From contig JAFGIX010000054.1 of assembly GCA_016929395.1 (NCBI GenBank), forward strand, positions 1 to 64,000: a DNA stretch of 64,000 bases. Reading direction: 5' to 3'. The position numbers and the translations under genes are program-made. How positions within the stretch are numbered: the stretch's first letter is position 1; each line of letters opens with the position of its first letter. This DNA is from Candidatus Zymogenus saltonus (GTDB taxonomy: Bacteria > Desulfobacterota > Zymogenia > Zymogenales > Zymogenaceae). Of this stretch, positions 1 to 19,673 are shown in pieces. The notes below the pieces were generated by a model, which was given only the letters and a program-made list of their open reading frames with translations, was not told the DNA's origin and did no database searches.

Positions 1-121
1 CAAGACAGGCCAAGAAAAGTGGCGGTTCAAGACTAGCATTGGTGTATACTCTTCTCCCTGTGTTGTGGACGGTGTGGTCTATTTCGGGAGTGGTGATGGC
101 TTTCTCTACGCGGTGAAATAA
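1..121 (+). CDS. C-terminal end of a PQQ-repeat protein (cut by window edge)
   Basis: An open frame running in from the left edge encodes about 40 residues and stops at 119-121. It contains one PQQ-type propeller blade with the KTGQEKWRFKT and VVYFG...FLYAVK signatures. These are nearly the same as the last blades of the protein starting at 159, and both proteins end in FLYAVK. It is therefore the tail of another member of the modular family that fills the next 15 kb. Its N-terminal domain lies outside the window, so membership in the shared-N-domain set is an inference. Confidence 0.8.
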   Translation, partial: KTGQEKWRFKTSIGVYSSPCVVDGVVYFGSGDGFLYAVK

Positions 122-158
122 GACAAATCTTGTAAAATTTACTCATAAGGGGTAAAAA

Positions 159-1607
159 ATGAAAACTGTAAAAGTAAATTTTCTTTTCATTATTACAGCA
201 CTTTTGTTTCTATCCCCAATGTACGTTGCTTCCAAGACAAAGACCATAAGCGGGACAATCGCCTCGGTCGAGGCGGGAAACGGGAGCGTGGGGACGACCA
301 TAACAATCAACCTCGGTTCCAACAATAACCTGAAAAAGGGCGACCTGGGATGGGTAAGCAAGGGGGATGAAAATATAGCTTATATCAAGATAATAACGGT
401 GGGCACAAACTCCGCCGCTGCTGTTGTTACCGCCCATGAAAACGTGGTGAAGGTAATGTCCGGGCTTCCTGTCCACTTTAAGGTGGAGGTGACCGAGGCA
501 AAGCCGGAATCGAAGCCGGATAAAAAAATTGGGGAAAAACCAAAAGAAGCACCGATATCAAAAACACAGGGAAAGATATATCCGTACATGCCGATGTTTC
601 GGGGGAACCCCGCCCGCACCGGCACGTGGATAACCAGGGGCGTTCCCGAAGCATCAGAAGTCCTCTGGAAGTTCAATACAAATAATCATGTTATATCTTT
701 ATCTCCTTGTGTTGTGGACGGTATTGTTTACTTCGGGAGTATTGATGGTTTTGGTTTTCTTCATGCTGTGGATACGAAGACAGGTCAAGAAAAGTGGCGG
801 TTCAAGACGGGTACTATAGAATCCTCCCCATGTGTCGTAGACAGTGTGGTCTATTTCGGGGGGGATTATCATCTCTACGCCGTTGATGCCAAGAAAGGTT
901 TTGAGAAGTGGCGGTTTAAGACTAGTGGTTATGTAGAATCCTCCCCCTGTGTTGTGAATGGGATTATCTATTTCGGGAGCAATGATGAAAATCTCTACGC
1001 CGTTGACACGAAGACAGGTCAAGAAAAGTGGCGGTTCAAGACGGGTAGTAGTTTTAGAGACTCCTCCCCATGCTTGATGGACGGCGTGGTCTACTTCGGG
1101 CGTGATGCTCTCTACGCTGTGGATGCAAAGACGGGGCAAGAGAAGTGGCGGTTCAAGAGGCCTGAATGTTTATATTCCTCCCCGTGTGTAGTGGACGGTG
1201 TGGTCTATTTCGGAAGCCAAGATTCCAATCTTTACGCCGTGGATGCAAGGACGGGTCAAGAGAAGTGGCGGTTTAAGACTGGTGGTTATGTATATTCCTC
1301 CCCCTGTGTTGTGCACGGGGTTGTCTATTTCGGGAGCAATGATGAAAATCTCTACGCCGTTGACACGAAGACAGCTCAAGAAAAGTGGCGGTTCAAAACG
1401 GGTGATAAAGTATCCTCCTCCCCCTGTGTCGTGGACGGTACGGTCTATTTCGGGTGTTGGGATGGTCATCTGTACGCCGTGGATATCAAAACAGGCCAGG
1501 AGAAGTGGTGGTTCAAGACGGGTTATAGAATATACTCATCTCCCTGTGTTTTAGACGGCGTGGTCTATTTCGGGTGTGCTAATGGTTTTCTATACGCGGT
1601 GAAATAA
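159..1607 (+). CDS. Exported modular protein: shared N-terminal domain plus PQQ-type beta-propeller
   Basis: The 482-residue product starts with a signal peptide (about residues 1-25). The family's shared N-terminal domain follows (about 26-112), with KTKTISGTI near its start and the core KKGDLGWVSKG. A Lys/Pro-rich linker leads to about eight 39-residue PQQ-type blades (168-482), each with SSPCVVDG, VYFGS, LYAVDxKTGQEKWRFKT. Such blades form beta-propellers that usually bind partners; I see no residues indicating a PQQ enzyme, so a scaffold or sensor in the periplasm is likelier. The start is supported by AAGGGG upstream. It heads a dense + strand run, 55 bp before the VWA gene. The repeats are highly alike at DNA level, so collapse or expansion is possible. 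Confidence 0.85.
   Translation: MKTVKVNFLFIITALLFLSPMYVASKTKTISGTIASVEAGNGSVGTTITINLGSNNNLKKGDLGWVSKGDENIAYIKIITVGTNSAAAVVTAHENVVKVMSGLPVHFKVEVTEAKPESKPDKKIGEKPKEAPISKTQGKIYPYMPMFRGNPARTGTWITRGVPEASEVLWKFNTNNHVISLSPCVVDGIVYFGSIDGFGFLHAVDTKTGQEKWRFKTGTIESSPCVVDSVVYFGGDYHLYAVDAKKGFEKWRFKTSGYVESSPCVVNGIIYFGSNDENLYAVDTKTGQEKWRFKTGSSFRDSSPCLMDGVVYFGRDALYAVDAKTGQEKWRFKRPECLYSSPCVVDGVVYFGSQDSNLYAVDARTGQEKWRFKTGGYVYSSPCVVHGVVYFGSNDENLYAVDTKTAQEKWRFKTGDKVSSSPCVVDGTVYFGCWDGHLYAVDIKTGQEKWWFKTGYRIYSSPCVLDGVVYFGCANGFLYAVK
690..1590 (+). repeat. Tandem 117-bp-type repeats coding for propeller blades
   Basis: Inside the gene at 159-1607 about eight consecutive units of near 117 bp repeat, each containing variants of gtctatttcggg and aagtggcggttcaag. 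They are coding repeats, not an array of spacers. Their close similarity suggests recent duplication or gene conversion. Confidence 0.75.
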
Positions 1608-1662
1608 GGAGACGTATTAAGAATTTTGATTTTCTAATTTTTACAGTGAGGATAATATTAAA

Positions 1663-3396
1663 ATGGACTTTCGAAGATTTTTTCTAAAAATATCCCTGTC
1701 CGTTCTTTTTATCTTCCTCTCGGCATCTCTCGTGTTTGGACAGGATTTAATCCACAAGAACGGCAAGGCCGAAGTCTATCTGCTCCCCGACAAGGTCGAG
1801 CATCGGGTAAAGGTGAAAAAGCTCATCGCAAGTGCGGTGATCCACGAAGAAATCAAACATGCCGATGTATTTTTAGAGCTATTTCTTGAAAATGACGGTA
1901 AAGTGGATTTCGTTGAGGTCAAATTTTTTGGCAATGAGTATACGGAAGAACAGAAAAAGGCGTGGAAAGAGCACATCCAGACAATGCCTGCATCATTTCA
2001 TCACGTTGAGCTGGCGGAAGTTTTCACCATCCCCAACACGAGGATGGCGAAGGTATTGGGAGGCCACTACAAATATTCTGTAACCATCATCAACAATCAA
2101 AAGGCCGCCGGGGAAGTAGTCACATTTCTGACCTTTATACCATCTGAGCTCATAGATATTGTCACAAGCCTTACGATGCCCGAGCTTGGTATCGAAAGCA
2201 TCGTTATTTCCGAAGGCAATTTCAGCCATGTAATTCCGCTGGGGAAAAAGCTCACAGAGATACCCGCCGTTCCAACGGAGGTCGACCTTAAAAACATAGG
2301 CATACCCGCCAAACCCACGATTACAGTAACGATAGATAAAAGCGGGAAAAACGAGATAGCGATGGGAGAGAAAATATCGCCGGAAATTGTCTATTCACCG
2401 GCCTCCTCCGATCTGACCGGAAAATCGCTTGTCATGGAGATTGTAAAAATCGAGATATTGCAAGATTATGCCAATGAGTTCACGCCTGGGTATACTCTAA
2501 AAAAAGGTCACATAAGCTACTCCAGAAGAAAGACCATCGAAGAAATTACCCTCTTAGACGCAACCGAGCTGAAAAAGCTAAATCTAAAACCGGACGATAT
2601 TATCAAAATAGTGCCGACAAAGGAATTCGTATTCAACAGCCCGAGAAAGCATGAGATCATTGTAAAAGTAGATAAGGCGGAAGCCAAAACGGATTTTATG
2701 GTGAAAGCACCGGAGGGACCAAGCCCTTCCATTACGATGTCTCTGCCGCCCACGACGGAGGAAAAGCCGCCCACCGTTGCCGAGAAGCCGAAAGGCCCGG
2801 ATATATCGTCTATATTGACCGAGTCTAAAGACACACAAAAAGACACGAATCTCCCGTCGATTCTCAAAAAGACGGATACGGAATCCGGGGTGCCAATTAC
2901 CGCGGGACCGGTGGGACTCTCCTATACAGTCCTTTTGATGGATGTCAGCGCCAGCATGGGAAGCAAGAGCAAGATATACCAGGCCATAGATATTGCCACG
3001 GACTACGTCAACAAGGCGGGGCCGAAGGACAGGATCGCGTTGATGAAGTTCAACAACAGCTCCAGGCTCCTTCACGATTTCAATGAAAAGAGAGGTATCA
3101 TAATTAGTTCCTTACATCGTTTAAAACCCGGCGGCGGCACGGCCTTGCGAGACGCTCTTTTGGATGCCATGAATGTTCTAGACAATGCGCCGGGGGGAAG
3201 AAGGATCGTCTACGTCATAACCGATGGTATTGACACGGCAAGCACCGCGACGATAGATCAACTCAAGTTCAAGGCAACCACTCTCGGTGTGGAGATAGAA
3301 ACCGTTCCCGTGGGATCGGACGCAAAACTGGATGTGCTGAAATCAATCTCGGGGATATCGGGAGGCTCAAAGACTAAAATATTGGAAAAAAGGTAG
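1663..3396 (+). CDS. Exported VWA-domain protein with a large unknown N-terminal part
   Basis: The 577-residue product has a signal peptide (about 1-26), roughly 390 residues I do not recognise, and a C-terminal von Willebrand factor A domain (about 420-577). The metal-binding MIDAS pieces are visible: DVSAS, the Thr in GGGTAL and the Asp in VITDG. VWA domains bind protein partners through a divalent metal. A Pro/Lys-rich linker (about 355-400) precedes the VWA domain. There is no C-terminal membrane segment, so the protein is probably periplasmic or outer-membrane associated. It sits 37 bp before a membrane Ser/Thr kinase. A second VWA protein lies at 11896 before the second set of modular proteins. 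Confidence 0.8.
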   Translation: MDFRRFFLKISLSVLFIFLSASLVFGQDLIHKNGKAEVYLLPDKVEHRVKVKKLIASAVIHEEIKHADVFLELFLENDGKVDFVEVKFFGNEYTEEQKKAWKEHIQTMPASFHHVELAEVFTIPNTRMAKVLGGHYKYSVTIINNQKAAGEVVTFLTFIPSELIDIVTSLTMPELGIESIVISEGNFSHVIPLGKKLTEIPAVPTEVDLKNIGIPAKPTITVTIDKSGKNEIAMGEKISPEIVYSPASSDLTGKSLVMEIVKIEILQDYANEFTPGYTLKKGHISYSRRKTIEEITLLDATELKKLNLKPDDIIKIVPTKEFVFNSPRKHEIIVKVDKAEAKTDFMVKAPEGPSPSITMSLPPTTEEKPPTVAEKPKGPDISSILTESKDTQKDTNLPSILKKTDTESGVPITAGPVGLSYTVLLMDVSASMGSKSKIYQAIDIATDYVNKAGPKDRIALMKFNNSSRLLHDFNEKRGIIISSLHRLKPGGGTALRDALLDAMNVLDNAPGGRRIVYVITDGIDTASTATIDQLKFKATTLGVEIETVPVGSDAKLDVLKSISGISGGSKTKILEKR

Positions 3397-3433
3397 AATA
3401 TTTAAATATGTATAATGGAAAAAGGAGTTAATC

Positions 3434-4897
3434 GTGAAATCAAGGTTTTCCTATTATGGCTTGGCGCTATTAATGTTTCTGTCATTTTCGAGTCAGATTT
3501 TCGCCAATGAGCTAAAGATTATACCAAAGAGCGGTTCGGGGCTTTTTCAGAGGGATCTAACCGGTATAAAAGTGACCCTCGACGGGGCAAGTGTATACAG
3601 TGGTATTTTGGATGATGAAGGATTGGTGAAAAGTTCAACCGGGAAATCAATTAATATTAAGCCGGGCGATTATACCCTCTCATTTACACTGGATGGATAT
3701 AAGCCCGCGAAGTTTGAAGTTATAATTCCCAAGACGCCGGAAGGATTGCCGATTCTGACAGTAAGCAGGGAGATATCTCTGATAAAACTGCCTCCACCAC
3801 CTGTCGAGGAGAGAGGTCCCGCACCAAGATTTAAATCCTTTATGGAAGACGAAGAATTCTGGGGATATGTGATGGTTATACTTCTCCTGTTGATTGCGGT
3901 GCTTGTTATCGTATTGTTGTTTATACTGATGCGAAGGAGATCATTATACATGGGAGGTGCGGCAGCTGCCAAGGATAAACCAAAGCTAAAGGCTTCAAAG
4001 ACAAAATCCAAAGCACCGCCGGCTGAATATGATGACGGGCCTATTGCTTCCAAAGAGCAGCGGTTTACGGGCAAGCGTTTCGGGAAATATCTGGTAACAA
4101 AGACTATAGCCAGGGGCGGTATGGCCTATGTTTTGGAGGCGGAGTTTGAAAAAGGTGGGGGCACTCAGAAGGCCGCCCTCAAGATACCTTACGAGAATTA
4201 TCAGGAAGATAAGGAGTTTGTCAATCGTTTCAACCAGGAGGCCGAACTGGGAGATATCCTGTTTCATGAGAATATCATTCAGTTGTATGAATATGGGAAG
4301 GCCGAAACGGGGACGAAGTTTATCGCTATGGAATACGTTGACGGGACTGACCTTAGAAAGCTCATCGAAAAGGAGGGCATATTGGAGCCTGAGCGATCCG
4401 CGAAGATAGTCATGGACGTTGCGAAGGCGCTTGATTATGCCCACAGCCAGAACCCGCCGGTGTACCACCGCGATATCAAACCCGAGAATGTCATGTTTAA
4501 AGACAAAAAAGGTCAAAGTCCCGCAATATTGACCGATTTCGGAATCGCCACGCAGGGGGGCACCATGGGAACCGGAAAGGCGTTGATCGGCACCGCCCTC
4601 TATTCATGCCCCGATGCCGCAAAGGGCCATCCCGTTTCACCGGGGTATGATATCTACTCGCTGGGCGTGGTTTTCTACGAGCTGTTGACCGGCGAGGTGC
4701 CGTTCAGCGGGCCTGATTTCTATACCATTATGCGGCGGCATGAGGAAGTGGAACCGAAGCCTCCGAGAGAGATAAATCCTGACGTGCCGGAAGAGCTTGA
4801 AGAGATAGTATTGAAGATGATGGAGAAGGACCCGAAGAAGAGATACAAAAAGGTAAAGGAGTTGTTGGTAACGCTGCGAGATTACCTCAACAGGTAA
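3434..4897 (+). CDS. Membrane Ser/Thr protein kinase with N-terminal extracytoplasmic domain
   Basis: The 487-residue product begins at a GTG with AAAGGAG upstream. It has a signal peptide (about 1-25), a PEGA/carboxypeptidase-regulatory-like beta domain (about 25-118: KVTLDG, PGDYTLSFTLDGYKPAKFEV), one transmembrane helix (about 142-165), a basic linker, and a C-terminal Hanks-type kinase (about 215-487). Seen in the kinase are the glycine loop IARGGMAYV, the ALK lysine, HRDIKPENV (catalytic Asp347) and DFG. The predicted topology is sensor outside, kinase inside, the reverse domain order of PknB-type kinases. The PP2C phosphatase at 8452 is its likely counterpart. Confidence 0.88.
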   Translation: MKSRFSYYGLALLMFLSFSSQIFANELKIIPKSGSGLFQRDLTGIKVTLDGASVYSGILDDEGLVKSSTGKSINIKPGDYTLSFTLDGYKPAKFEVIIPKTPEGLPILTVSREISLIKLPPPPVEERGPAPRFKSFMEDEEFWGYVMVILLLLIAVLVIVLLFILMRRRSLYMGGAAAAKDKPKLKASKTKSKAPPAEYDDGPIASKEQRFTGKRFGKYLVTKTIARGGMAYVLEAEFEKGGGTQKAALKIPYENYQEDKEFVNRFNQEAELGDILFHENIIQLYEYGKAETGTKFIAMEYVDGTDLRKLIEKEGILEPERSAKIVMDVAKALDYAHSQNPPVYHRDIKPENVMFKDKKGQSPAILTDFGIATQGGTMGTGKALIGTALYSCPDAAKGHPVSPGYDIYSLGVVFYELLTGEVPFSGPDFYTIMRRHEEVEPKPPREINPDVPEELEEIVLKMMEKDPKKRYKKVKELLVTLRDYLNR

Positions 4898-4927
4898 CAA
4901 GAAATTTTACCATAGGAGGAAAGGGAA

Positions 4928-6250
4928 ATGAAAAAGGCTTTATTGTTTGTGATTCTTCTATTCGCGATGGCAGTTGTAATAATGCCTTTATATACTGAGG
5001 CAACTACAAAGACCATAAGCGGGACAATAACGGTCGTGGAGGGCGGAAACGGGAGCGTCGGGACGACGATAAGGATAAATATCGGCTCCAGTAAAAATAT
5101 CAAAGAAGGCGACCTGGGCTGGGTGAGCAAAGGTAGTGAGGTGATTGCGTATATTAAAATTATATCTGTGCACAGTAATTCGGCAATAGCTATTGTGACG
5201 ACCCATCAGCACGTAGTGAAGGTGACTGCTGGGCTGCCGGTGGGGTTTAAGGTGGATGTAACCGAAACGAAGCCGGAGCCGAAGCCGGAGCGAAAGCCGG
5301 TGAAGAAATATCCCGTACAACCGGAATTTGTCATCAAACCCCAGTTTGATGATGCCGGGTCTTTCAGCGAGGGCCTGGCTCCGATAAACATCGGCGGCAA
5401 GAGGGGTTACATAGGCAAGACCGGGAAATATGTCGTCAACCCGCAGTTTGATGATGCTGGGAGTTTCAACGAGGGCCTGGCTCAGGTGAAAATCGGTGAT
5501 AAGTATGGCTATATCGATAAGACCGGGAAGTATGTTATTAACCCTTATCAGTTTGATGATGCCTACTCATTCAGCGAGGGCCTGGCTTGGGTAGAAATCG
5601 GAGGGAAGAAGGGCTACATCGACAAGACAGGGAAACTAGTAATCAAACCCCAGTTTGATGGAGCCTATCCTTTCAACGAAGGCCTGGCTACTGCATGGAT
5701 CGGCGATAAGGAGGGCTACATAGACAGGACCGGGAGATATATTATCAAACCGCAGTTTAATTTTACCCGGCCTTTCAGCGAGGGTCTGGCTTTTGTTCGT
5801 ATCGGCGACAAGGGCGGTTGCATAGACAAGACCGGGAAATATGTTTTTACCACGCAGTCTCTTTATGTCGGGGTTTTCAGCGAGGGTCTGGCTACGGTGT
5901 TTAACGGCAGCAAGAGAGGTTACATAGACAAGACCGGAAAAATTGTGATAACCCCGCAGTTTGAAGGGGTTGGTAATTTCAGCGAGGGCTTGGCTCGGGT
6001 AGAAATCGGTGGCAAGTACGGCTATATCGACAAGACCGGGAAGATTATCGTCAACCCAAAGTTTGATGATGCTTTAGGTTTTAGAGAGGGCCTGGCTTTA
6101 GTGAAAATCGGTAGTAAGTGGGGTTACATCGACAAGACCGGGAAGTATATCATCACCCCGCAGTTTGAAAATGCCGGTAATTTCAGAGAGGGCCTGGCTC
6201 CTGTTAAAATCGGCGGCAAGTACGGCTATATAAAAAATCCGTTGAAATAA
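4928..6250 (+). CDS. Exported modular protein: shared N-terminal domain plus nine WG repeats
   Basis: The 440-residue product has a signal peptide (about 1-26), the shared N-terminal domain (to about residue 113, core KEGDLGWVSKG), a linker of PEPKPERKP type, and nine 34-residue WG (KWG) repeats of the form PQFDxAxxFxEGLAxVKIGxKxGYIDKTGK. WG repeats are known from Leptospira, Bacteroidetes and other bacteria; their ligand is mostly unknown. AGGAGG lies before the ATG. The linker and repeats closely match the gene at 13083, whereas the N-domain is closest to the gene at 6288, so the gene looks chimeric. One blade (near 5855) is degenerate. Confidence 0.85.
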   Translation: MKKALLFVILLFAMAVVIMPLYTEATTKTISGTITVVEGGNGSVGTTIRINIGSSKNIKEGDLGWVSKGSEVIAYIKIISVHSNSAIAIVTTHQHVVKVTAGLPVGFKVDVTETKPEPKPERKPVKKYPVQPEFVIKPQFDDAGSFSEGLAPINIGGKRGYIGKTGKYVVNPQFDDAGSFNEGLAQVKIGDKYGYIDKTGKYVINPYQFDDAYSFSEGLAWVEIGGKKGYIDKTGKLVIKPQFDGAYPFNEGLATAWIGDKEGYIDRTGRYIIKPQFNFTRPFSEGLAFVRIGDKGGCIDKTGKYVFTTQSLYVGVFSEGLATVFNGSKRGYIDKTGKIVITPQFEGVGNFSEGLARVEIGGKYGYIDKTGKIIVNPKFDDALGFREGLALVKIGSKWGYIDKTGKYIITPQFENAGNFREGLAPVKIGGKYGYIKNPLK

Positions 6251-6362
6251 TTTCAGATTTTTTGAATTACAAGAACAGGAGAAATATATGAAATCGATTA
6301 AGATATTTGTCCTTCTTGGCATTATTTCTATCTTGGTTCTATCTCCAATGTACGTTGCTTCA
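6222..6362 (+). repeat. Duplicated block, copy 1: end of WG gene, spacer and start of next gene
   Basis: The end of the WG gene (aaaaaatccgttgaaataa), the 37-bp spacer with gaattacaagaacaggag, and the first ~75 bases of the next gene recur almost unchanged at 14386-14526. The block spans a gene junction, so a two-gene unit was duplicated. Confidence 0.8.
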
Positions 6363-7016
6363 AAGACAAAGACCATAAGCGGAGCGATAACTTCGGTTGA
6401 GGCAGGGAATGGGAGCGTGGGAACGACTATAAAGATAAATATTGGTTCCAGCAAAAATATAAAAGAAGGCGACCTGGGCTGGGTGAGCAAAGGCAGTGAG
6501 GTAATTGCGTATATCAAGATAATATCGGTGCACAGTAATTCTGCAATAGCCATTGTCACAACCCACCAGCACGTGGTGAAGGTGACGTCTGGCCTGTCGG
6601 TGGGGTTTAAGGTGGAAGTAACTGAGACAAAGCCGAAAAGTGACAAGGAAAAATCTGAAGAGTGGTTTAAAAAAGGGAGAGAACAACATAAAAAGGAACA
6701 CTATGAGGAAGCTGTTCGATCTTTTACAGAGGCAATAAAAATAAACCCAAATTATGAAGAAGCATACAAAAATAGAGCTTATTCATACAGTAGAATGAAA
6801 AAGTATACTCAAGCAATATCTGACTTTAAGAGAGCTTTGGAAATTAATCCGAACAATGAATATTACTATTGGGTTTTAGCCGTAACATATAAAAACTACG
6901 AGGGAACGTGGCACGGAACAGCCAAGGACTACTTACGAATAGGTTGTGAGCATGGTGATAGTAATTGTTGTAGAAACTATCATTGGCATTTAGAAGATCC
7001 AGGAAGTTATGAATAA
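6288..7016 (+). CDS. Exported modular protein: shared N-terminal domain plus TPR repeats
   Basis: The 242-residue product has a signal peptide (about 1-25), the shared N-terminal domain (to about residue 112), then about two clear TPR units (WFKKGREQHKKEHYEEAVRS and AYKNRAYSYSRMKKYTQAIS) and a Cys/His-containing tail (GCEHGDSNCCRNYHWH). TPRs are protein-protein interaction scaffolds. The ATG has AGGAG upstream. Signal peptide and spacer are almost identical to those of the PDZ protein at 14453. Base composition drops sharply to AT-rich at the start of the TPR part (near 6650), suggesting a different origin for that module. Confidence 0.82.
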   Translation: MKSIKIFVLLGIISILVLSPMYVASKTKTISGAITSVEAGNGSVGTTIKINIGSSKNIKEGDLGWVSKGSEVIAYIKIISVHSNSAIAIVTTHQHVVKVTSGLSVGFKVEVTETKPKSDKEKSEEWFKKGREQHKKEHYEEAVRSFTEAIKINPNYEEAYKNRAYSYSRMKKYTQAISDFKRALEINPNNEYYYWVLAVTYKNYEGTWHGTAKDYLRIGCEHGDSNCCRNYHWHLEDPGSYE

Positions 7017-7033
7017 GCAAATAGGGGAAAAAG

Positions 7034-8428
7034 ATGAAACCAATAAAAGCATATATACTTTTTACTATTATAACCTTCTTGATTCTATCTCCAGTGTATG
7101 TAGCTTCCAAGACAAAGACCATAAGCGGAACGATCACGGCCGTGGAGGGTGGAAACGGGAGCGTGGGAACGACGATAACGATTAACCTCGGTTCCAACAA
7201 TAACCTGAAAAAAGGCGATTTAGGTTGGGTTTCAAAGGGTGATGAAAATATAGCTTATATCAAGATATTGTCTGTCGAAAATAATTCTGCAATAGCCATT
7301 GTCACGACCCATGAGCATGTGGCAAAGGTCACTTCGGGGCTGAGAATCAGCTTTAAAGTGGATGTAAAGGAGGAGATTATACCGGAAAAGAAAACTGTTT
7401 CAAAAATTAAAGAACCGACTTTTCTGTGGCGATTTGGCAGGTTTAATATTGCTAATGTACCAGAAACTGTAAAGCCTCTTTTTTCTAATGGGACTATCTA
7501 TTTTGGATCCTCTGAATTGTATGCCCTTAACTCAATGACGGGAAAACAATGTTGGAAATTTGACAAGGATGTGTTTGAAAGTAGCATTTTTCCTATAAAC
7601 TCACCAATGGTTTATAGTAATACACTTTATGTATGTAACTCGTTTTCAATATGCGCTTTCAATATTGACACAGGGTATCTTTTTTGGGCGAAGCAAACCG
7701 AACAAGTCTACGATGGCCCCCCCGTTTTTATTGATAATATGTTATTTTATAGCGTAATTCATCAGGGTATTATAGCAAGAGATGCCAGAAGCGGCAGTTT
7801 GCTTTGGAGATATAAGACTTATGAAAGTATCTATAATGCCCCGATTATTTTTGATAGTAAAGTATATGGCTGGGATCAAGAACAAGTATATTGTCTGAAT
7901 TCAAAAACAGGAAGTTTAATATGGAAAAAGAAGGTAAAACCGAGAACAGAAGAAGTAGTGAATTACAAAAATACACTTATCATTCCCTGTGTTGAAGGAC
8001 TTTTTTGTCTGGATAAAGATTCTGGAGAGATTGTAAAACAGCAACGATATCCTTCTAATTTTGGTTTTGGGGATTTTTTTAGAGCACATTCTGTTATTAA
8101 TGGGAGTAATGTGTTCTATAACATCGAGAGCAGTTTAATATCAATAAATCTTGATTCCGGAAGGGTCAATTGGGAAGCGAAGTTAGAAGGTTCTACAAGA
8201 TTTTCAGCTCCAGTGTTGTCGAAAGGCAGGGTATATATTGGAGATAATGATGGTTATGTGTATGCTTTGGACGCTTACTCGGGAAAAATATTATGGAGGT
8301 ATACAGAAGAAAATATTAAGGAAGTTTATGGATTATGTGTGGAAAATAGTATTCTATATTTCATTTGTGTTGAGGGATTAAAACACACATCGGTAGATGG
8401 TTGGCTTTATGCTATCAAAATTCAATAA
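7034..8428 (+). CDS. Exported modular protein: shared N-terminal domain plus diverged PQQ-type propeller
   Basis: The 464-residue product has a signal peptide (about 1-25), the shared N-terminal domain (about 26-112) and a C-terminal half of diverged PQQ-type blades (IYFGSSELYALNSMTGKQCW, IARDARSGSLLWRYKT, VYALDAYSGKILWRYTE). Its N-domain is the same subtype (NNNLKKGDLGW) as that of the propeller protein at 159, but the blades are far more diverged and AT-rich. It lies 17 bp after the TPR gene and 23 bp before the phosphatase gene, so co-transcription is likely. It is probably a periplasmic binding scaffold; no enzyme residues are evident. Confidence 0.82.
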   Translation: MKPIKAYILFTIITFLILSPVYVASKTKTISGTITAVEGGNGSVGTTITINLGSNNNLKKGDLGWVSKGDENIAYIKILSVENNSAIAIVTTHEHVAKVTSGLRISFKVDVKEEIIPEKKTVSKIKEPTFLWRFGRFNIANVPETVKPLFSNGTIYFGSSELYALNSMTGKQCWKFDKDVFESSIFPINSPMVYSNTLYVCNSFSICAFNIDTGYLFWAKQTEQVYDGPPVFIDNMLFYSVIHQGIIARDARSGSLLWRYKTYESIYNAPIIFDSKVYGWDQEQVYCLNSKTGSLIWKKKVKPRTEEVVNYKNTLIIPCVEGLFCLDKDSGEIVKQQRYPSNFGFGDFFRAHSVINGSNVFYNIESSLISINLDSGRVNWEAKLEGSTRFSAPVLSKGRVYIGDNDGYVYALDAYSGKILWRYTEENIKEVYGLCVENSILYFICVEGLKHTSVDGWLYAIKIQ

Positions 8429-8451
8429 CCTCAAAATACGAGACAGAATAA

Positions 8452-9456
8452 ATGAAAAATACTCATACCCTACCTATAACCTTTTCATGGAGAACCGATA
8501 CCGGCAAAGTCAGAGAAAACAATGAAGACAGCTTCCTGGCCTTAAGACAAGCCGGTAAAAATCCCCTGAACATACGCTCCGTCCTCATTGTTGCCGATGG
8601 CATGGGCGGACACGTTGGCGGAGATAGGGCCAGCAGTTCCGTGGTGAGATTCGTTGATGAAATTTTCAAACCGAAGAGCGTCAGCAAGCTCGACAAATTT
8701 ATCGGTAAAGAAGATAAGGCGATTGTATCGATAATAAAAGCTGCGGATAAAAGAGTTAGAGATCTTTCTGGAGGGGATACACACAAAGCCCCTGGCACTA
8801 CCTTTACCGGGGCGTTCATAATAGACAATAAGGCATTGATTGGTCACGTTGGGGACAGCCGCGCTTATCATATCAGAAACGACGAAATTGTTCAGGTTAC
8901 CGAGGATCACTCCTACGTGGCGAGCCTTGTGCGGGATGGAAAACTCACTCCTGAAGAGGCGAAGGATTTCCCTCATAAAAACGTAATCTTAAAGTCATTG
9001 GGATCGGGCGAATCTCTGAAAGTTGATCCGCCGAGAAAAATCAATCTCTTGGATGGAGACATTTTGCTACTCTGTTCCGATGGCCTTTGGGATCTCGTGT
9101 CGGATACCGAGATATTGTCGATTATCCACAAATCGAAAAGCATAAAGATAGCAAGTGACAGACTCATAAAGCTGGCAAATCATCGTGGTGGGCACGACAA
9201 TATCACGGTAGTCATGGCGGAATTCGGCCAATTAAAGAGAAACCCAAAATTATTCAGTGATTTAAAAGAGCTCCCACGCATTCAACCATTGAGCAATAAA
9301 AACTTCAGAAATCTTTTGAAAGGGATTTTGGTGCTTCTCTCAATCTTGCTTGTTTTTATTATATGGCAAATCGTAAAGGATTATAGGGGAATCGAAAAAA
9401 ATGTAATGCCTCGTGCGGGGCAATCGACATCAAAGCCATTGGGAGATATCCCTTAG
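8452..9456 (+). CDS. PP2C-family Ser/Thr phosphatase with C-terminal membrane anchor
   Basis: The 334-residue product has the PP2C (PPM) motif series in order: TGKVRENNED near the N-terminus, VADGMGGHVGG (about 47-57), GTTFTGAFI, HVGDSRAY, LLCSDGLWD and GGHDNITVV. These Asp residues bind the two catalytic metals. A single hydrophobic helix (about 286-306) near the C-terminus would anchor it with the catalytic domain in the cytoplasm. It should remove phosphate from Ser/Thr targets of the two kinases at 3434 and 9576, between which it lies. Known families pair such phosphatases with PknB-type kinases; the pairing here is from context. Confidence 0.9.
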   Translation: MKNTHTLPITFSWRTDTGKVRENNEDSFLALRQAGKNPLNIRSVLIVADGMGGHVGGDRASSSVVRFVDEIFKPKSVSKLDKFIGKEDKAIVSIIKAADKRVRDLSGGDTHKAPGTTFTGAFIIDNKALIGHVGDSRAYHIRNDEIVQVTEDHSYVASLVRDGKLTPEEAKDFPHKNVILKSLGSGESLKVDPPRKINLLDGDILLLCSDGLWDLVSDTEILSIIHKSKSIKIASDRLIKLANHRGGHDNITVVMAEFGQLKRNPKLFSDLKELPRIQPLSNKNFRNLLKGILVLLSILLVFIIWQIVKDYRGIEKNVMPRAGQSTSKPLGDIP

Positions 9457-9575
9457 AATTAGGACGATGTGGGGGGAACATAGAGAATATAAAAATACCA
9501 ATTCCGATAGTCCAAATTTGAATTAAGTAAATTGTGAACGAGTATCCATTTTTTTAATTGTCGGAGTAAAAGATC

Positions 9576-11747
9576 ATGCCTATTTGCGGTAATTGTGATT
9601 ACAAAAATCCAAAAGATGCTGAATTCTGTAAGAAATGCGGGGCGAGGTTAAAAGGAGACGAAGATCCTTTTGTTGGGACGATCATTGAAAAACGATACGA
9701 GGTGCTCGAGAAGATAGCTGAAGGTGGGATGGGAACGATCTACAAAGCTCATGACAAAAGGCTTGATATAACCGTTGCTCTGAAAATACTTCATCCGGAG
9801 CTCGCTCGCAACAAGAAATTTCTTTCCCGCTTTGAGAACGAGGCGAAGACCGTCGCAAAACTGAGACACGAAAATATTGTCTTGGTAAACGATACCGGCC
9901 CTGTCAGGGATACCTATTTCATCTCGATGGATTATGTTGATGGAGATGACCTCGTGGAGATCATCAATGACAGGGGGCTGTTGTCTATTGATGAGGCCTT
10001 CTCCATCGCCTCGCAGGTGGCCGAAGGGCTGGCCTATGCCCATTCCAAGGGAATCCTTCATAGAGATATCAAGCCTGCCAATATCATCATAGACAGGTCA
10101 GGAAAGGCGGTGATTACAGATTTTGGGATATCCAAAGCATTGGGTGAAAAGGGTCAGACAACTACCGGGACATCTATCGGCACACCGGAATATATGAGTT
10201 TAGAACAAATCAAGGGGAAGAAGCTCGATGGGAGGACGGATATCTATTCGTTGGGAGTTGTGCTTTATGAGATGCTGACTGGGAAATCTCCATTTCGCTC
10301 AGATACAGGAGTGTCCGCCATCGCCAAGATACTGAGTGAAGAAGCGGAGCCAATAGAGAGTCTGCGTCCCGATATTCCAGGCTGGGCTCTAGGGCTGCTC
10401 GAAAGGGTGATGGAAAAGGATCGGGAAAAGAGAATCGAGACAGCAGATGAATTTATTACTGTAATAAAGAAAGAATCTGAAAAAGAGACCAAAACCTCCG
10501 AACCAAAACCAAGAAAAGCTGATAAAAGCAAAGCTCCTACAGCCCCGGACCTAATTAAGAAGAAGAGGAAGGATAAAGTACAAGAATTGAAACTAAAGCT
10601 AAAAACCCAAAAGCATGCCTTCCCACGTAATAGAAAACTTGTTATTGCAGCGCTGTCAATTCTCATTGTTATTGGTATATCAATAGCCTTATTTCCCTTG
10701 GTGCATACATGTTCAAGTATGAAGAGTGTAGATGATTACGATGAATTAAAATCAGGCCTTTACAGAGTGATGATTAAAGATAAATGGGGTTATGCCGATG
10801 ATAAAAAGGTGATGGTAGGTGAAGGATTCTTCCATATAATTATTGAGCCTCGATTTGATGAAGCTGGTGATTTCATCGATGGTATTGCAGTGGTGAAGAT
10901 GGGAGATAAGTATGGCTATATAGATAGAAGGGGATATTTCATCGCAGATCCTCGTTTTGATAAAGCTGAAAATTTCAGCGAAGGATTAGCCGAAGTAATG
11001 ATCGGTGATAAATATGGCTACATTGATAAAACGGGAAAATATGTAGCTGAACCTAAGTTTGATTTTATTGGTGATTTCATCGACGGTATTGCAAGAGTCA
11101 AGATTAATAATAAATATGGCTATATTGATAAAACAGGAAAATGTATAGCTGAAACTAAGTTTGATTTTATTGGTGATTTCATCGACGGTATTGCAAAAGT
11201 CAAGATTAATGATAAGTATGGCTATATTGATAAAACAGGAAAATATATAGCTGAACCTAGGTTTGATTTTATTGGTGATTTCATCAATGGCATTGCACGA
11301 GTAAAGATCAATGATAAATATGGCTATATTGACAAAACATGGAAATATATCGTAATCCCACGATTTGATAAAGCAAGTGATTTCGAGGGTGGTAGGGCGA
11401 AAGTGGAATCAGGGGGGAAATGGTGGTATATAGACCAAACTGGAGAACTAATCAAGGGAGAATGCCATTCAACGGAATCATCTGCATTGGGGTATCTGTC
11501 AGGCCCCGGAGATTCATGCAAATTTAGGGTACCTGTGTCGCGGAAAGAGAACAAACAATCCCCAATTAGATTTACTTGTGAAAACAAATCAGAAGATTTT
11601 TGGATTAGATTTATACATTCCGGCGGCAAGGAAACGAAATATTCTTTGAAAAAGTATACATCATTCTCGGCATGGGATTCAAGTGGTTACGTAAATATAT
11701 TAATCTATTCAAATTCAGGTTCCGGAGATTGGAAATGCAATTGGTAA
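9576..11747 (+). CDS. Ser/Thr protein kinase with N-terminal zinc ribbon and extracytoplasmic WG repeats
   Basis: The 723-residue product starts with a short zinc ribbon (CGNC...CKKCG, residues 4-22), then a Hanks kinase (about 38-300: IAEGGMGTIYKA, ALKIL, HRDIKPANI with Asp164, DFGISKA), a Lys/Pro-rich linker, a transmembrane helix (about 355-376), about seven WG repeats (398-628) and a unique tail (628-723) with four Cys. Kinase and zinc ribbon should be cytoplasmic and the WG repeats outside, where the WG proteins encoded at 4928 and 13083 are exported. The kinase may sense the same ligand or bind those proteins; that is inference. The 119-bp spacer upstream may hold a promoter, but I see no convincing boxes. 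Confidence 0.88.
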   Translation: MPICGNCDYKNPKDAEFCKKCGARLKGDEDPFVGTIIEKRYEVLEKIAEGGMGTIYKAHDKRLDITVALKILHPELARNKKFLSRFENEAKTVAKLRHENIVLVNDTGPVRDTYFISMDYVDGDDLVEIINDRGLLSIDEAFSIASQVAEGLAYAHSKGILHRDIKPANIIIDRSGKAVITDFGISKALGEKGQTTTGTSIGTPEYMSLEQIKGKKLDGRTDIYSLGVVLYEMLTGKSPFRSDTGVSAIAKILSEEAEPIESLRPDIPGWALGLLERVMEKDREKRIETADEFITVIKKESEKETKTSEPKPRKADKSKAPTAPDLIKKKRKDKVQELKLKLKTQKHAFPRNRKLVIAALSILIVIGISIALFPLVHTCSSMKSVDDYDELKSGLYRVMIKDKWGYADDKKVMVGEGFFHIIIEPRFDEAGDFIDGIAVVKMGDKYGYIDRRGYFIADPRFDKAENFSEGLAEVMIGDKYGYIDKTGKYVAEPKFDFIGDFIDGIARVKINNKYGYIDKTGKCIAETKFDFIGDFIDGIAKVKINDKYGYIDKTGKYIAEPRFDFIGDFINGIARVKINDKYGYIDKTWKYIVIPRFDKASDFEGGRAKVESGGKWWYIDQTGELIKGECHSTESSALGYLSGPGDSCKFRVPVSRKENKQSPIRFTCENKSEDFWIRFIHSGGKETKYSLKKYTSFSAWDSSGYVNILIYSNSGSGDWKCNW
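11046..11351 (+). repeat. Three near-identical 102-bp units inside the kinase WG region
   Basis: Units begin at 11046, 11148 and 11250 (gctgaacctaag-type starts) with exact 102-bp spacing and few differences, while flanking WG repeats of the same gene are diverged. This marks recent tandem duplication within the sensor part of the kinase. Confidence 0.85.
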
Positions 11748-11895
11748 TAACGTTAATGGAATACAAAATGCCCATAAAAATGTTTCATTGCAAAGAGTTT
11801 TTCTTATTGTTTATACCTATTCCAAAGTTTAATTGAATTTTTCTAATTCAGTTATCGAGTACTGATAGATAATCTCAATAATAGGAGAATAAAAT

Positions 11896-13032
11896 ATGAA
11901 AGAGAAATATAATCGCAAAGCCATTTTCCCCTTGTTTGGAACTTTAACAATTTTTTTTGTTCTCTCGATCTTACCGTGCCTTTCGGCCGAAAAAACTTCT
12001 AATCCATCTTCGAAATCACCTTCATCAAATATTGGCGTTGTGACCTTATCCCAGCTCAACCTCAAAGACTATCCCACCATCACTGCTTACCTCTCGATTA
12101 CCGATCCCGATGACAGGCCGATTAACCTCATTGATATAAAAGACCTCACGGTTACCGAAGAGGAGAAACCCGTAGGAGACCTCAAGATAATCGAGGCCGA
12201 TCCTGTGACTGACCCACTTTCGGTGGTTCTGGCTATCGATATCTCCGGGAGTATGGCGGGCAAACCACTGGAAAAGGCAAAGAACGCCGCAGAGGCCTTC
12301 GTAAATCTACTTGAGGTGGGGGACAAAGCCGCCATCGTCACATTTGATCAGGATGTTTATCAAGATATGCCCCTCACGGATGATAAAACTGCATTGGTCA
12401 ATACAATCCGTGGCCTCAAATACAAGGGAGATACCGCATTGTATCAGGCAATCATCGATTCGGCCGATGTATTAAAGGATGCACCCGATGGAAGGCGAAT
12501 CGTGATTATCCTGACCGATGGGAGAAACGATAAGGCCAACAGCACCTCCACCAAGGAAGATTCGGTCAGTGCGGCGGGTGTGGGCAGGGCAGTTGTCATT
12601 ACCGTGGGTCTGGGAAACGAGATAAACGCCGATGTGCTAAAATATATTGCCGAGGAGACGGGCGGGAGATTTTTCTTTGCCCCGAAGCCGGAAGACCTAA
12701 AGGAGATATATGAGCTTATCTCCGACCAGATACACGCCCAGTACCGCCTATCTTTTACATCCCCCTTTCCCGAGCGCCCCGATCGGGTTGTCCTTTTTCA
12801 CACCATCGATGTGGGCCTTCGTTACGGTGGCGAGAAGATCAGTGGAACAAGAGAATTTTTGGCCTCCACCAACCCCCCACCCAATACCGGGATACTTCTC
12901 GATTATCAGAAGAAAAATGTGGCGGAATCTGAATGGCAGGCTATCTTATACACGTTGATTGCTATCGCCTTTGTGTTGCTGGTGGTGATATTGTTGGTTT
13001 TGATACTAAAGGCGGTGAAGGCAAGGAAGTAG
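11896..13032 (+). CDS. Membrane-anchored VWA-domain protein
   Basis: The 378-residue product has a signal peptide (about 1-30), a short beta region (about 45-105), a VWA domain (about 109-275) with MIDAS residues DISGS, the Thr in GDTALY and LTDGRND, a beta-rich segment (275-340), and a C-terminal transmembrane helix (about 349-371) with a KAVKARK basic end. It should therefore face the periplasm and be held in the inner membrane. GGAG lies upstream of the ATG. Its relation to the VWA protein at 1663 is limited to the VWA fold. It may hold envelope partners for the kinases; no T6SS genes are near, so a PpkA-type role is unsupported. Confidence 0.82.
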   Translation: MKEKYNRKAIFPLFGTLTIFFVLSILPCLSAEKTSNPSSKSPSSNIGVVTLSQLNLKDYPTITAYLSITDPDDRPINLIDIKDLTVTEEEKPVGDLKIIEADPVTDPLSVVLAIDISGSMAGKPLEKAKNAAEAFVNLLEVGDKAAIVTFDQDVYQDMPLTDDKTALVNTIRGLKYKGDTALYQAIIDSADVLKDAPDGRRIVIILTDGRNDKANSTSTKEDSVSAAGVGRAVVITVGLGNEINADVLKYIAEETGGRFFFAPKPEDLKEIYELISDQIHAQYRLSFTSPFPERPDRVVLFHTIDVGLRYGGEKISGTREFLASTNPPPNTGILLDYQKKNVAESEWQAILYTLIAIAFVLLVVILLVLILKAVKARK

Positions 13033-13082
13033 GAGTTTTTCCTAAGAGACAATTTCATACCAAAAAATTGGAGGTGCTTTCC

Positions 13083-14414
13083 ATGAAAGGAAAAAAATAT
13101 TCATATGTACTGGTCTCTTTGCTGGTTTTTGCTTTCTTGATATCGCTTTCCACATTTTTGATGGCAAAGACGGAGACAAAGAGCGGGACAATTATTTCTG
13201 TAATAAGCGGGGATGGTAGCAAGGGAACGGTTATAAAGATAGACCTTGGGTACAGTGATAAGCTCAAAGAGAAGCAGCTGGGCTGGGTCACAAAAGACGG
13301 CGACGCGATTGCGTATATTGAGATCGTATCTCTCGAAAGCCATAAGGCCGTTGCTCTTGTAACGACCCACGAGAACGTTGAGAAAGTAACAACTGGGTTG
13401 TTGGTAAGCTTCAAGGTGGAAGTGTCCGAGACAAAGCCGGAGCCGAGGCCGGAGCGAAAACCGGTGAAGAAATATCCCGTACAACCGGAATTTGTCATCA
13501 CCCCGCAGTTTGATGATGCTGGGAGTTTCAACGAGGGCCTGGCTCAGGTGAAAATCGGTGATAAGTATGGCTACATCGATAAGACCGGGAAGATAGTAAT
13601 CAACCCGCAGTTTGATGGTGTCTGGGATTTCAGCGAGGGCCTGGCTAGTGTGAAAATCGGTGGTAAGTGGGGCTATATAGATAAGACAGGAAAGTATATC
13701 GTCAACCCGCAATTTGATTATGCCGATGTTTTCAGTGAGGGGCTGGCTTTGGTGAAAATCGGCGGCAAGTGGGGCTATATAGATAAGACCGGGAAATACG
13801 TCATCAAACCTCAGTTTGATCGTGCCAACCCTTTCAGCGAGGGACTGGCTCGTGTGGAAATCGGCGGCAAGTACGGCTTCATAGACAAGACCGGGAAGAC
13901 AATCATCAACCCACAGTTTGACCAAATCTATGATTTCAAAGAGGGCATGGCTAATATGAAAATAAGAGGTCTAAAGTCAGGCTTTATCGACAAGACCGGG
14001 AAATATGTAATCAGCCCTCAGTTTAATTCTGTTCGTTTTTTCAGCGAGGGGCTGGCGATGGTCGTTGTCGAAGGGAAGCGGGGCTTCATAGACAAGAGCG
14101 GGAAGATAGTCATCAACCTGCAGTTTGATGATGCAGATTGTTACAGCGAGGGCCTGGCTTGTGTGAAAATCGGCGGCAAGTGGGGCTATATAGATAAGAC
14201 CGGAAAAATTGTCATCACCCCGCAGTTTGATAGATCCGGGTCTTTCAGAGAGGGGCTAGCTATAGTGAGAATCGGTGAAAAAAGAGTCTACATCGACAAG
14301 ACCGGAAAGTATATTATCAATTTGCAGTTTGATGGTTACGGGCATTTCAGCGAAGGACTGGCTCAGGTGAAAATCGGTGATAAATGGGGCTACATAAAAA
14401 ATCCGCTGAAATAA
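13083..14414 (+). CDS. Exported modular protein: diverged shared N-terminal domain plus WG repeats
   Basis: I start this at the ATG at 13083, preceded by GGAGG; an open frame extends upstream to 12933 but that overlaps the VWA gene and lacks a signal peptide at its start. The 443-residue product has a signal peptide (about 1-27), the most diverged copy of the shared domain (core KEKQLGWVTKDG), the linker KPVKKYPVQPEFVI shared with the protein at 4928, and nine WG repeats. A stretch near 13505-13590 is almost identical in DNA to 5440-5530, pointing to recent exchange between the two WG genes. Probably periplasmic; ligand unknown. Confidence 0.85.
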   Translation: MKGKKYSYVLVSLLVFAFLISLSTFLMAKTETKSGTIISVISGDGSKGTVIKIDLGYSDKLKEKQLGWVTKDGDAIAYIEIVSLESHKAVALVTTHENVEKVTTGLLVSFKVEVSETKPEPRPERKPVKKYPVQPEFVITPQFDDAGSFNEGLAQVKIGDKYGYIDKTGKIVINPQFDGVWDFSEGLASVKIGGKWGYIDKTGKYIVNPQFDYADVFSEGLALVKIGGKWGYIDKTGKYVIKPQFDRANPFSEGLARVEIGGKYGFIDKTGKTIINPQFDQIYDFKEGMANMKIRGLKSGFIDKTGKYVISPQFNSVRFFSEGLAMVVVEGKRGFIDKSGKIVINLQFDDADCYSEGLACVKIGGKWGYIDKTGKIVITPQFDRSGSFREGLAIVRIGEKRVYIDKTGKYIINLQFDGYGHFSEGLAQVKIGDKWGYIKNPLK

Positions 14415-14526
14415 TTGCAACCCTTTTTGAATTACAAGAACAGGAGATATATATGAAATCGATGAGGATATTTGCCCTTCTTGGCATTATTTCTATCTTG
14501 GTTCTATCCCCAGTGTACGTTGCCTC
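14386..14526 (+). repeat. Duplicated block, copy 2: end of WG gene, spacer and start of next gene
   Basis: This is the second copy of the junction described at 6222-6362. It includes the last codons of the WG gene, the spacer with gaattacaagaacaggag, and the signal-peptide codons of the following gene. Confidence 0.8.
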
Positions 14527-15754
14527 CAAGACGAAGACCGTCAGCGGAATAATCACCTCGGTTGAGGCCGGGTCTGGAAGCGTGGGAACGACGATTAAGA
14601 TAAACATCGGCTCCAATAAGAAAATTAAAGAAGGCGACCTGGGATGGGTGACAAAGGGTGATGAAGCTATAGCTTATATCAAGATCATTTCAATTCATGG
14701 CAATTCGGCTGTTGCAGTTGTGACCGTTCATCAACATATTGAGAAGATAACATCAGGATTGTCGGTCCATTTTAAAGTTGATATCCACGATCCAAAGCCG
14801 AAACCTAAACCTGATACAAAAGCTGAACTCATTACTAAACTTGGTTTCACAGTGGAGAATGTAACAGACAGTATAGCAAAATATCTGGGGCTTCCAGATA
14901 CTAATGGTGTTATCATAACTCATGTAAAGAGTGGAAGTATTGGTTCAAGATTAGGATTAAAGAAAGGTTTTATTATACAAAAGTTAAATGATAGCAAAAT
15001 AAGAAACACAGCTGATCTTAAACAAGCAATAAAAAAGGTTGAAAAAACTGGTAACTATAGATTCTCAATATGGCATGACGGGCATTCTGTCACTTTTGTT
15101 TATAATGACCTAGAAAAAGTAAAAAAGGATTTAGATGATGAAGGTTATATAGGAGTTGTTGTTCAAAAGATAAATACAGAAATAGCAATGTCGTTAAAAA
15201 TGGAGAATCCAAGAGGTGTGTTAATAAGCGGAATTGAACCTGGGAGTCCTGCGGATAATGTAGATTTAATAGAATGTGATGTGATAATTAAATACAATGA
15301 CATAGAAGTAAACGAGCCTTCAGATCTTGTAAGACTTGCATCGAACTCAAAAATTGGAGAAAGAGTTTATATAACAATAATAAGACATGGAAAAGAAAAA
15401 GTTGTTTCCTTAAAAATGGCGAATAGAAAATGGTATCTTGGTTCATCTAAAAGTAAAAAAGGTTTTCTTGGAGTGGATTGTAAAGTGATTTATTCTGATC
15501 CTTTTGGTCCTTTTACTAAATCTGGTTCAATTAGGTTTGAAATCACAGGGATATTTCCTGGGAGTCCTGCAGATAATGTAAACCTTCAGAGAGGTGATAT
15601 TATTTATAAATTCAATAATAAAAAGATTGAAAGCAGTGATGATTTCAAAACATTGGTTGCTAATACAAAAGTTGGCGAGGGAGTGGTGGTCAATATTTTA
15701 AGAGAGGGTAAAAAGGTAGACATATACGTGAAGATCGGGAGAAAACCTGAATAG
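14453..15754 (+). CDS. Exported modular protein: shared N-terminal domain plus three PDZ domains
   Basis: The start is set at the ATG at 14453 (AGGAG upstream) because it gives the family signal peptide; the frame itself is open from 14384. The 433-residue product has a signal peptide, the shared N-terminal domain (core KEGDLGWVTKG), and three PDZ-like domains (about 133-215, 240-320 and 340-430), two with ExxSPADNV followed by GDIIYKFN-type strands. No protease domain is present, unlike HtrA/DegP or Tsp. PDZ domains bind C-terminal peptides, so it may present or tether envelope proteins. The PDZ part is distinctly AT-richer than the N-domain. It is the last gene of the run. Confidence 0.83.
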   Translation: MKSMRIFALLGIISILVLSPVYVASKTKTVSGIITSVEAGSGSVGTTIKINIGSNKKIKEGDLGWVTKGDEAIAYIKIISIHGNSAVAVVTVHQHIEKITSGLSVHFKVDIHDPKPKPKPDTKAELITKLGFTVENVTDSIAKYLGLPDTNGVIITHVKSGSIGSRLGLKKGFIIQKLNDSKIRNTADLKQAIKKVEKTGNYRFSIWHDGHSVTFVYNDLEKVKKDLDDEGYIGVVVQKINTEIAMSLKMENPRGVLISGIEPGSPADNVDLIECDVIIKYNDIEVNEPSDLVRLASNSKIGERVYITIIRHGKEKVVSLKMANRKWYLGSSKSKKGFLGVDCKVIYSDPFGPFTKSGSIRFEITGIFPGSPADNVNLQRGDIIYKFNNKKIESSDDFKTLVANTKVGEGVVVNILREGKKVDIYVKIGRKPE

Positions 15755-16140: not shown

Positions 16141-16149
16141 TATACTGCA

Positions 16150-19297: not shown

Positions 19298-19309
19298 CAG
19301 TATTCCTTA

Positions 19310-19672: not shown

Positions 19673-19673
19673 A

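Follow-up and report, generated by a model that had tools for sequence, protein, structure and literature searches.

What connects six exported proteins that begin alike and end differently with the kinases among whose genes their own are placed? The question is raised by the window analysed here, the first 64 kb of contig JAFGIX010000054.1 (C54; window position 1 is C54 position 1) of Candidatus Zymogenus saltonus, whose genome (G000) comprises 3.76 Mb in 92 contigs and whose class, Zymogenia, is placed under Deltaproteobacteria in the NCBI tree. Between positions 159 and 15754 the window holds an array of 11 genes, all on one strand and by their coordinates separated by gaps of 17–148 bp, in which genes for six exported proteins with a common N-terminal domain (the N-domain, predicted to be a barrel) are interleaved with genes for two Ser/Thr kinases, one PP2C phosphatase and two VWA proteins. 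That the six form one family with a history of recombination is, in our judgement, virtually certain; the explanation that we favour as a whole, an island-borne array of barrel-based exported binders working with a kinase/PP2C/VWA core, we regard as evenly poised between right and wrong. The genes of the array, named below by their start positions, and the partial gene that precedes them are as follows.

1–120, plus strand: C-terminal tail (last ~39 residues) of a PQQ-type propeller protein, as read from the sequence.
159–1607, plus strand: predicted exported barrel (N-domain 240–503) and PQQ-type propeller with 8 blade motifs (about 759–1601).
1663–3396, plus strand: VWA protein with an N-terminal hydrophobic segment; VWA domain at about 2926–3363.
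3434–4897, plus strand: transmembrane Ser/Thr kinase with a putative outer part of ~110 residues, a transmembrane segment at aa 139–157 and on, and the kinase domain at 4094–4849.
4928–6250, plus strand: predicted exported barrel (5009–5272) and nine WG repeats (5324–6223).
6288–7016, plus strand: predicted exported barrel (6369–6632) and two TPRs (6675–6857), with a step in GC content at third codon positions (GC3) between them.
7034–8428, plus strand: predicted exported barrel (7115–7375) and PQQ_2-type propeller (best stretch 7646–8302), with a GC3 step between them.
8452–9456, plus strand: PP2C phosphatase with a C-terminal transmembrane segment (aa 284–302).
9576–11747, plus strand: zinc ribbon, Ser/Thr kinase domain (9696–10442), transmembrane segment (aa 352–370) and six WG repeats (10833–11423).
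11896–13032, plus strand: N-terminal hydrophobic segment, VWA domain (12223–12714; TIGR03436 barely above its cut-off) and transmembrane segment (aa 345–363).
13083–14414, plus strand: predicted exported barrel (13173–13436) and nine WG repeats (13488–14387).
14453–15754, plus strand: predicted exported barrel (14534–14794) and three PDZ domains (14831–15736), with a GC3 step.

Genes 159, 4928, 6288, 7034, 13083 and 14453 each encode a signal-like start and a shared domain of ~85 residues, followed by a head that differs from gene to gene; the original prediction, which had described six genes joining one N-domain to PQQ, WG, TPR or PDZ heads, was right in both coordinates and modules. In the other five genes the shared domain is 56–76% identical to the copy in gene 159, and a query made from the 6288 domain (99% identical to the real 6288 sequence) retrieved all six copies at E values of 1.2e-49 to 6.8e-28, far beyond chance. 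Hydropathy analysis found an N-terminal hydrophobic segment in all six proteins, and signal peptides were called from this together with reading by eye. (Note that longer 5' starts, at 12933 and 14384, are predicted for the open reading frames (ORFs) of genes 13083 and 14453; the starts used here are preceded by good Shine-Dalgarno-like sequences and agree with those of the other members.) The gene at the window's edge had been put forward as a probable seventh member. Its PQQ-type C-terminal tail is indeed present, but because the contig begins there the tail is all that can be seen of it, and any N-domain would lie outside the visible sequence. The true seventh member is a divergent one on another contig of the same genome (C86, 112523–113872), with 28% identity over 87 residues and nine WG repeats.

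Evidence that modules have been exchanged comes from the DNA of the family itself. In particular, the N-module of gene 6288 agrees with that of 14453 at 90, 97 and 83% in the first three 10-codon blocks and with that of 4928 at 87–97% in blocks 6–9. When the maximum chi-square (maxchi) test was applied to the N-modules, 8 of 60 triplets lay at the permutation floor of p 5e-4 (a floor of ~0.03 after Bonferroni correction over the 60 tests, with triplets that overlap), and the strongest signal was that of 6288 against 4928 and 14453. Genes 6288 and 14453 resemble each other in their 5' untranslated stretches as well. Moreover, GC3 drops from base to head, from 0.55 to 0.28 in 6288, from 0.52 to 0.28 in 7034 and from 0.47 to 0.22 in 14453; the amino-acid-stratified z values are 4.37, 4.27 and 5.06, respectively, compared with -2.52 to 2.67 for 29 control genes chosen from among those of the window and cut at the same place as the base/head boundary. 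The seam is not present in all six genes, since 4928 and 13083 have no compositional step (z -0.51 and -0.19) and that of 159 is weak (z 2.94, just over the top control). Such a seam would arise whether the cassette was fused to foreign heads or the base was converted by a copy richer in GC. That the six are interchangeable envelope binders on a common base, as had been proposed, is borne out as regards the shared exported base, the differing heads and the record of recombination in the DNA; that they reside in the envelope, and attached, we infer. The mosaic N-modules and compositional steps are also what would be seen if the cassette were repeatedly rejoined to new heads within a population, giving antigenic or receptor variation, and the repeated PQQ blades of 159 and the WG blades could themselves recombine. 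We consider variation of this kind very improbable, however: the island is known from one genome, so that variation between strains is not visible, and no recombination enzyme was noticed except a serine recombinase at its far edge.

What, then, is the common base? Structure prediction of the N-domain had been suggested beforehand as a check, and the AlphaFold2 model, made from the six window copies, is a six-stranded barrel (predicted local distance difference test score (pLDDT) 86.1, predicted template modelling score (pTM) 0.75). The 50 Foldseek matches listed for this model are all rotary-type ATPases (F, V/A and G1) or the related FliI, with a best E value of 9e-3; none reaches E 0.001. 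In VIA-align, which served as a second look at Foldseek's own candidates and whose 50 listed rows are likewise all rotary-type ATPases or FliI, the best match was 6fkf_D, from chloroplast F1 (Z 10.0, root-mean-square deviation (rmsd) 2.3 over 74 residues), and further rows at Z 9.4–9.9 had in many cases an rmsd of 1.9–2.7 and in others one of 5–8, where the alignment extends into the tail. We assign the barrel fold with high confidence, as a prediction from modelling. Four solved chains that the N-domain profile matched weakly by sequence (best E 0.025), a match to the PF13616 rotamase family and other weak Pfam matches were taken as chance.

A barrel of this kind is also reported in FlgT. In PMC4446572 the FlgT-C domain is described as resembling the F1 beta N-domain and its role is called "not completely clear"; passages of PMC7693769, PMC8855297 and PMC9957290 mention FlgT rings or WG-repeat genes and nothing further. 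The Pfam model of FlgT_C, PF16538, matched five of eight N-domain copies at E <= 10, with a best E value of 0.016, and stayed below its curated cut-off (27 bits); within the genome itself its best score was 12 bits (E 0.93). Profile comparison with hhalign, for which all 30 FlgT_C-type domains fetched from the phylum were used, linked the N-domain profile to them at 93.4–94.5% over five master sequences. In the control, run with one of the five masters, the link stood at 94.5% against a maximum of 11.1% in 150 column shuffles, and reversed profiles gave less than 1%. In the reciprocal direction, a profile built from 17 of the 30 FlgT_C-type domains and one further domain, from genome G153, retrieved none of the seven N-domains in the genome at E <= 1. 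Because the profile link far exceeds the shuffles but the Pfam cut-off and the reciprocal search fail, the sequence comparisons make the N-domain a divergent relative of the FlgT_C / F1-N barrel group and not a member of PF16538; it is thus not an entirely novel sort of domain, given its rotary-ATPase N-barrel fold and FlgT_C-type profile link, yet it does not belong to the known family by the tests applied. The likeness lies in the six-stranded barrel of the model. The N-domain differs in having no loop between strands 3 and 4, which is present in most FlgT_C-type members, and in lying at the N terminus ahead of repeat heads, whereas the FlgT_C-type domain lies near the C terminus in 24 of the 30 proteins fetched. 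Across the phylum FlgT_C-type domains occur widely, in 101 of 297 genomes at E <= 1e-3 and in 35 of the 297 above the cut-off. (The sole place retrieved by the FlgT_C-type profile in the genome at E <= 1 is on contig C25 (L097 901–2100), where an exported-looking LysM protein, named by eye, has three FlgT_C-type barrel stretches.)

The heads had been described as binding folds throughout, and their Pfam matches are indeed to modules of binding type, with one WG array modelled as propeller-like. WG repeats (PF14903) score above the cut-off nine times in 4928, nine times in 13083 and six times in kinase 9576; in the heads of 4928, 13083 and the C86 member (L008 17524–18873) the nine repeats are mostly 34 residues apart. 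The AlphaFold2 model of the 4928 WG head (pLDDT 89.5, pTM 0.69) aligned in VIA with propellers over about 290–310 residues. Its best match was 9qzc_i (Z 17.8, rmsd 3.3), followed by chains of eIF3-containing complexes (Z 15.2–16.4), which we take to be eIF3b, and by eIF2A (8dys, Z 16.1), all at an rmsd of 3.2–3.6; the designed proteins Cake9 and Cake10 matched at Z 15.8–15.9 and rmsd 4.2. The propellers of eIF3b and eIF2A are called nine-bladed in PMC10570035, and Cake9, according to PMC7734218, was designed with nine-fold symmetry, truncated forms having folded with eight or nine blades. By this model it is likely that the nine WG repeats of 4928 close into a nine-bladed ring, but not certain, because the superpositions made by Foldseek itself were poor (rmsd 7.7 to >30 and template modelling scores of 0.22–0.40 by query length among the 50 rows listed). 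By sequence the 13083 WG head gave one chance-level match (E 0.07) and no solved relative, and no paper in the open-access literature searched joins the terms WG repeats and propeller. Thirteen ORFs of the genome carry WG repeats, of which 11 span about 8–9 repeats, the others being the kinase (5.8) and a seven-repeat one. Nine WG repeats after a signal-like start are thus shared with many exported WG-repeat proteins of this genome and family; the barrel between start and array was found, by the N-domain profile and by eye, only in 4928, 13083 and the C86 member. (In genome G002, contigs C44 and C60 (L033, L034) carry several exported-looking WG-repeat genes, in tandem on C44, all without the barrel.)

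Gene 159 has eight PQQ blade motifs and matches PQQ_2 and ACSF4-type propellers; among solved structures its nearest relatives are 3hxj and Cake designs, followed by kinase-linked propellers and by BamB, and the 70-nt units of its blades are 66–83% identical to the reference copy. Unlike BamB and other PQQ propellers it has a barrel in front, and BamB models score below their cut-off (157 of 285 bits). Two enzymatic assignments were considered and rejected. Gene 159 is not a PQQ-dependent dehydrogenase, with 131.5 bits against a cut-off of 480.05 for PQQ_enz_alc_DH (NCBIfam), and gene 14453 is not an HtrA/DegP protease, since its above-cut-off Pfam matches are all PDZ, with no protease domain, and it reaches 176.1 of 416.2 bits with degP_htrA_DO.

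The remaining array genes would supply a membrane signalling core. In kinase 3434 hydropathy places a transmembrane segment between the N-terminal part and the kinase domain (a signal-like start, seen by eye, lies below the hydropathy threshold), and in kinase 9576 it places one between the kinase domain and the six WG repeats, so that the non-kinase parts of both probably lie outside the inner membrane. By eye the catalytic motifs look intact (HRDIKPxN, DFG, the PP2C acidic motifs and VWA DxSxS), and VWA 1663 shows the full DxSxS...T...D pattern; the N-terminal region of this protein was found in its own genome alone among 247 searched (0 of 246 others). Of the six kinase places in the genome at E <= 1e-8, two are in this array. 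A TerY-P triad consists of a cytosolic VWA protein of TerY type, PP2C and kinase, with ter genes close by, and the same three domain types are clustered here, with the difference that these VWA proteins look exported, having N-terminal hydrophobic segments. The array resembles receptor-type Ser/Thr kinases with a PP2C partner in the outer WG domain on a kinase, the adjoining PP2C and the same kinds of repeat heads, and departs from them in that its heads mostly belong to distinct exported proteins built on one common base. Kinases that include PQQ, TPR or VWA domains have been described in bacteria (PMC1262709). No FHA domain, as in the type VI secretion PpkA/PppA/Fha set, is among the Pfam matches listed for the 11 array proteins (no genome-wide search was made). 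Each component is of an established kind or nearly so; a layout in which one barrel carries different exchanged heads amid genes for kinases is not described among the papers listed from the open-access literature searched, in which no paper names Zymogenia.

The array lies in a stretch of low GC content (0.424 for 1–26384 compared with 0.523 for 26385–64000), with a step near a tRNA-Glu gene and, between array and tRNA, the following features.

16337–22696, minus strand: type I restriction-modification genes (HsdR 16337–19297, HsdS 19674–20987, HsdM 20984–22696).
24914–26425, plus strand: large serine recombinase, its frame running into tRNA-Glu; right edge of the likely island.
26385–26462, minus strand: tRNA-Glu (ttc), at the junction of low and normal GC.

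The recombinase is nearest to CcrB and XisF in NCBIfam, below the cut-off, and its frame runs antisense into the tRNA gene. Because the GC step falls at tRNA-Glu, a serine recombinase and a restriction system lie within the same stretch, and the N-terminal region of VWA 1663 is unique to this genome, the stretch is likely a genomic island and probably mobile. (A 103-residue GmrSD_N-type fragment at 16012–16323, with 32.2 of 33.2 bits, adjoins the restriction genes and is probably a remnant.) The restriction genes and this sub-threshold fragment directly after the array, and the scores of both kinases with PD-T4-6 models of PADLOC, would also fit a defence cassette, in which kinases, phosphatase and VWA proteins of a TerY-P-like or PD-T4-6-like kind act in a defence island and the exported proteins are phage-facing sensors or decoys. 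We think this improbable. The matches to PD-T4-6 and other PADLOC kinase models fall within aa 188–486 of 3434 and aa 3–375 of 9576 (25 of 35 rows); among the matches listed they cover the kinase domain and little else, and we take them as probably generic. Moreover, the VWA proteins are probably not cytosolic, because of their N-terminal hydrophobic segments, and the 11 array genes yielded no nuclease or other effector.

The explanation that we favour runs as follows. The likely island would bear the same-strand array as a co-transcribed unit, in which recombination puts a cassette of signal peptide and six-stranded barrel before different heads (a nine-repeat WG propeller, an eight-repeat PQQ propeller, a second PQQ-type propeller, TPR and triple PDZ). 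Two kinases of opposite topology, each with a domain outside the inner membrane, would be accompanied by a membrane PP2C and two exported VWA proteins; the barrel may be what all six use to dock on a partner in the envelope, be it one of the VWA proteins or a kinase's outer part, and the heads may determine the kinase/phosphatase output by binding periplasmic proteins, peptides or glycans. A functional link is argued for by the interleaving of the genes and by the WG head of kinase 9576, and we tentatively regard the exported proteins as periplasmic subunits of this kinase cassette, a step that could well fail. A bolder form, in which the moving cassette on foreign heads has built a receptor repertoire of exchangeable ligand-binding subunits that dock by one barrel onto the kinase/VWA/phosphatase core, appears unlikely.

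Several results count against the favoured explanation, beyond the patchy seam, the Foldseek E values and the failed reciprocal search given above. Foremost is the distribution of the N-domain. Its profile matched in three of 395 genomes, with seven copies in this genome, one in G002 and one weak match in G153, so that a clear member occurs in one of 394 other genomes. (The family is represented by four genomes, G000–G003, too few for a claim about distribution within it.) G002 is a Candidatus Zymogenaceae metagenome-assembled genome (record JAFGAS010000078.1), and its member, with a lipobox-like N terminus and a PQQ propeller, has neighbours a few kb away that by eye look ftsEX- and ctpA-like. 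No kinase is visible by eye among the ORFs of the 19.9-kb stretch on which this member lies, and on C86, which carries the seventh member, no kinase place reaches E <= 1e-8. The expectation that the N-domain would stand beside kinases in other lineages was thus disappointed, and the lack of a second neighbourhood of N-domain and kinase is the main argument against a functional link, because the proximity seen here could then be accidental co-residence in an island. It is quite possible that the exported proteins are tandem periplasmic paralogues that share the island with kinases by chance, the barrel being a module for stability, processing or localisation that has spread by recombination between neighbours, with no part in signalling. 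The G002 relative, a lone lipoprotein-like PQQ gene amid housekeeping-type genes, speaks for this, as do the barrel-less WG proteins, which are numerous and apart from kinases; for ten of the 13 WG ORFs, no kinase place lies closer than 14 kb on the contig concerned (the remaining three are all in the C54 array, one being itself a kinase). Chance is less readily reconciled with the kinase, phosphatase and VWA genes being interleaved with the barrel genes on the same strand at so close a spacing, and with one kinase bearing the same kind of WG head.

Co-transcription and the island borders add further points on the adverse side. Promoter-like sites in the scan were at chance level (40 compared with 34.0 +/- 6.2 expected) and terminator-like sites were fewer than expected by chance, so the scan, which found no terminator-like site in the array gaps, says little either way. 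The left end of the island is cut by the contig start, and a further copy of the tRNA 3' end that would mark the other border was not found with up to 3 mismatches allowed; such a border may still exist, because serine recombinases need only a short core. Reading the ORFs at the tRNA-Glu sites of G002 (C57) and G003 by eye revealed no serine recombinase. A second tRNA-Glu place in G002, on C85, is 85% identical, the site in G001 is uninformative because only 440 bp are present on that side, and, because synteny differs, the loci of the relatives are not clean empty sites.

If the functional link is true, sensing in this bacterial kinase system would fall to heads carried by individual exported proteins, all on a single base and diversified through gene fusion in place of point mutation. 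The shift in composition where base meets head would then directly record the fusion process, and the role of the FlgT-C-type barrel would become testable as a general docking part of the envelope. Even if the link to the kinases fails, the locus is a clear natural case of module swapping and yields the testable prediction that nine WG repeats form a closed propeller.

Further searches define how narrowly the N-domain is distributed. By profile search it is absent from G001, a genome of the same genus that is 88% complete, and from G003, of the same family. The window N-domain found no match in the genome contigs collection, in which the G002 protein as query found G002's own locus alone; viral contigs, searched with two short patterns only, gave no N-domain, and plasmids gave none. 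The weak match in G153 was rejected as a family member: its E value of 0.0019 applies to one genome where 395 were searched, which on its own is close to chance, and its domain is the better fit to FlgT_C-type barrels, at 95.8% as against 77.5% for the N-domain profile. The protein concerned (L049 1459–2118, minus strand) is lipoprotein-like, of 219 residues, with a charged middle, and ends in a FlgT_C-type barrel.

Elsewhere in the window, in the part with normal GC content, there are an exported-looking TPR protein (51108–51716) and a protein that by eye is PQQ-like (55251–56408), both without the barrel. It is possible that the end of C86 joins the start of C54; a BLAST comparison of the last 3 kb of C86 with C54:1–16000 gave matches in WG regions and none at the C54 start. 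C86 also contains a prophage-like stretch (L008 1–10700), some of whose ORFs by eye resemble those for terminase, primase and integrase; two WG genes lie downstream of it, and one of them has the N-domain.

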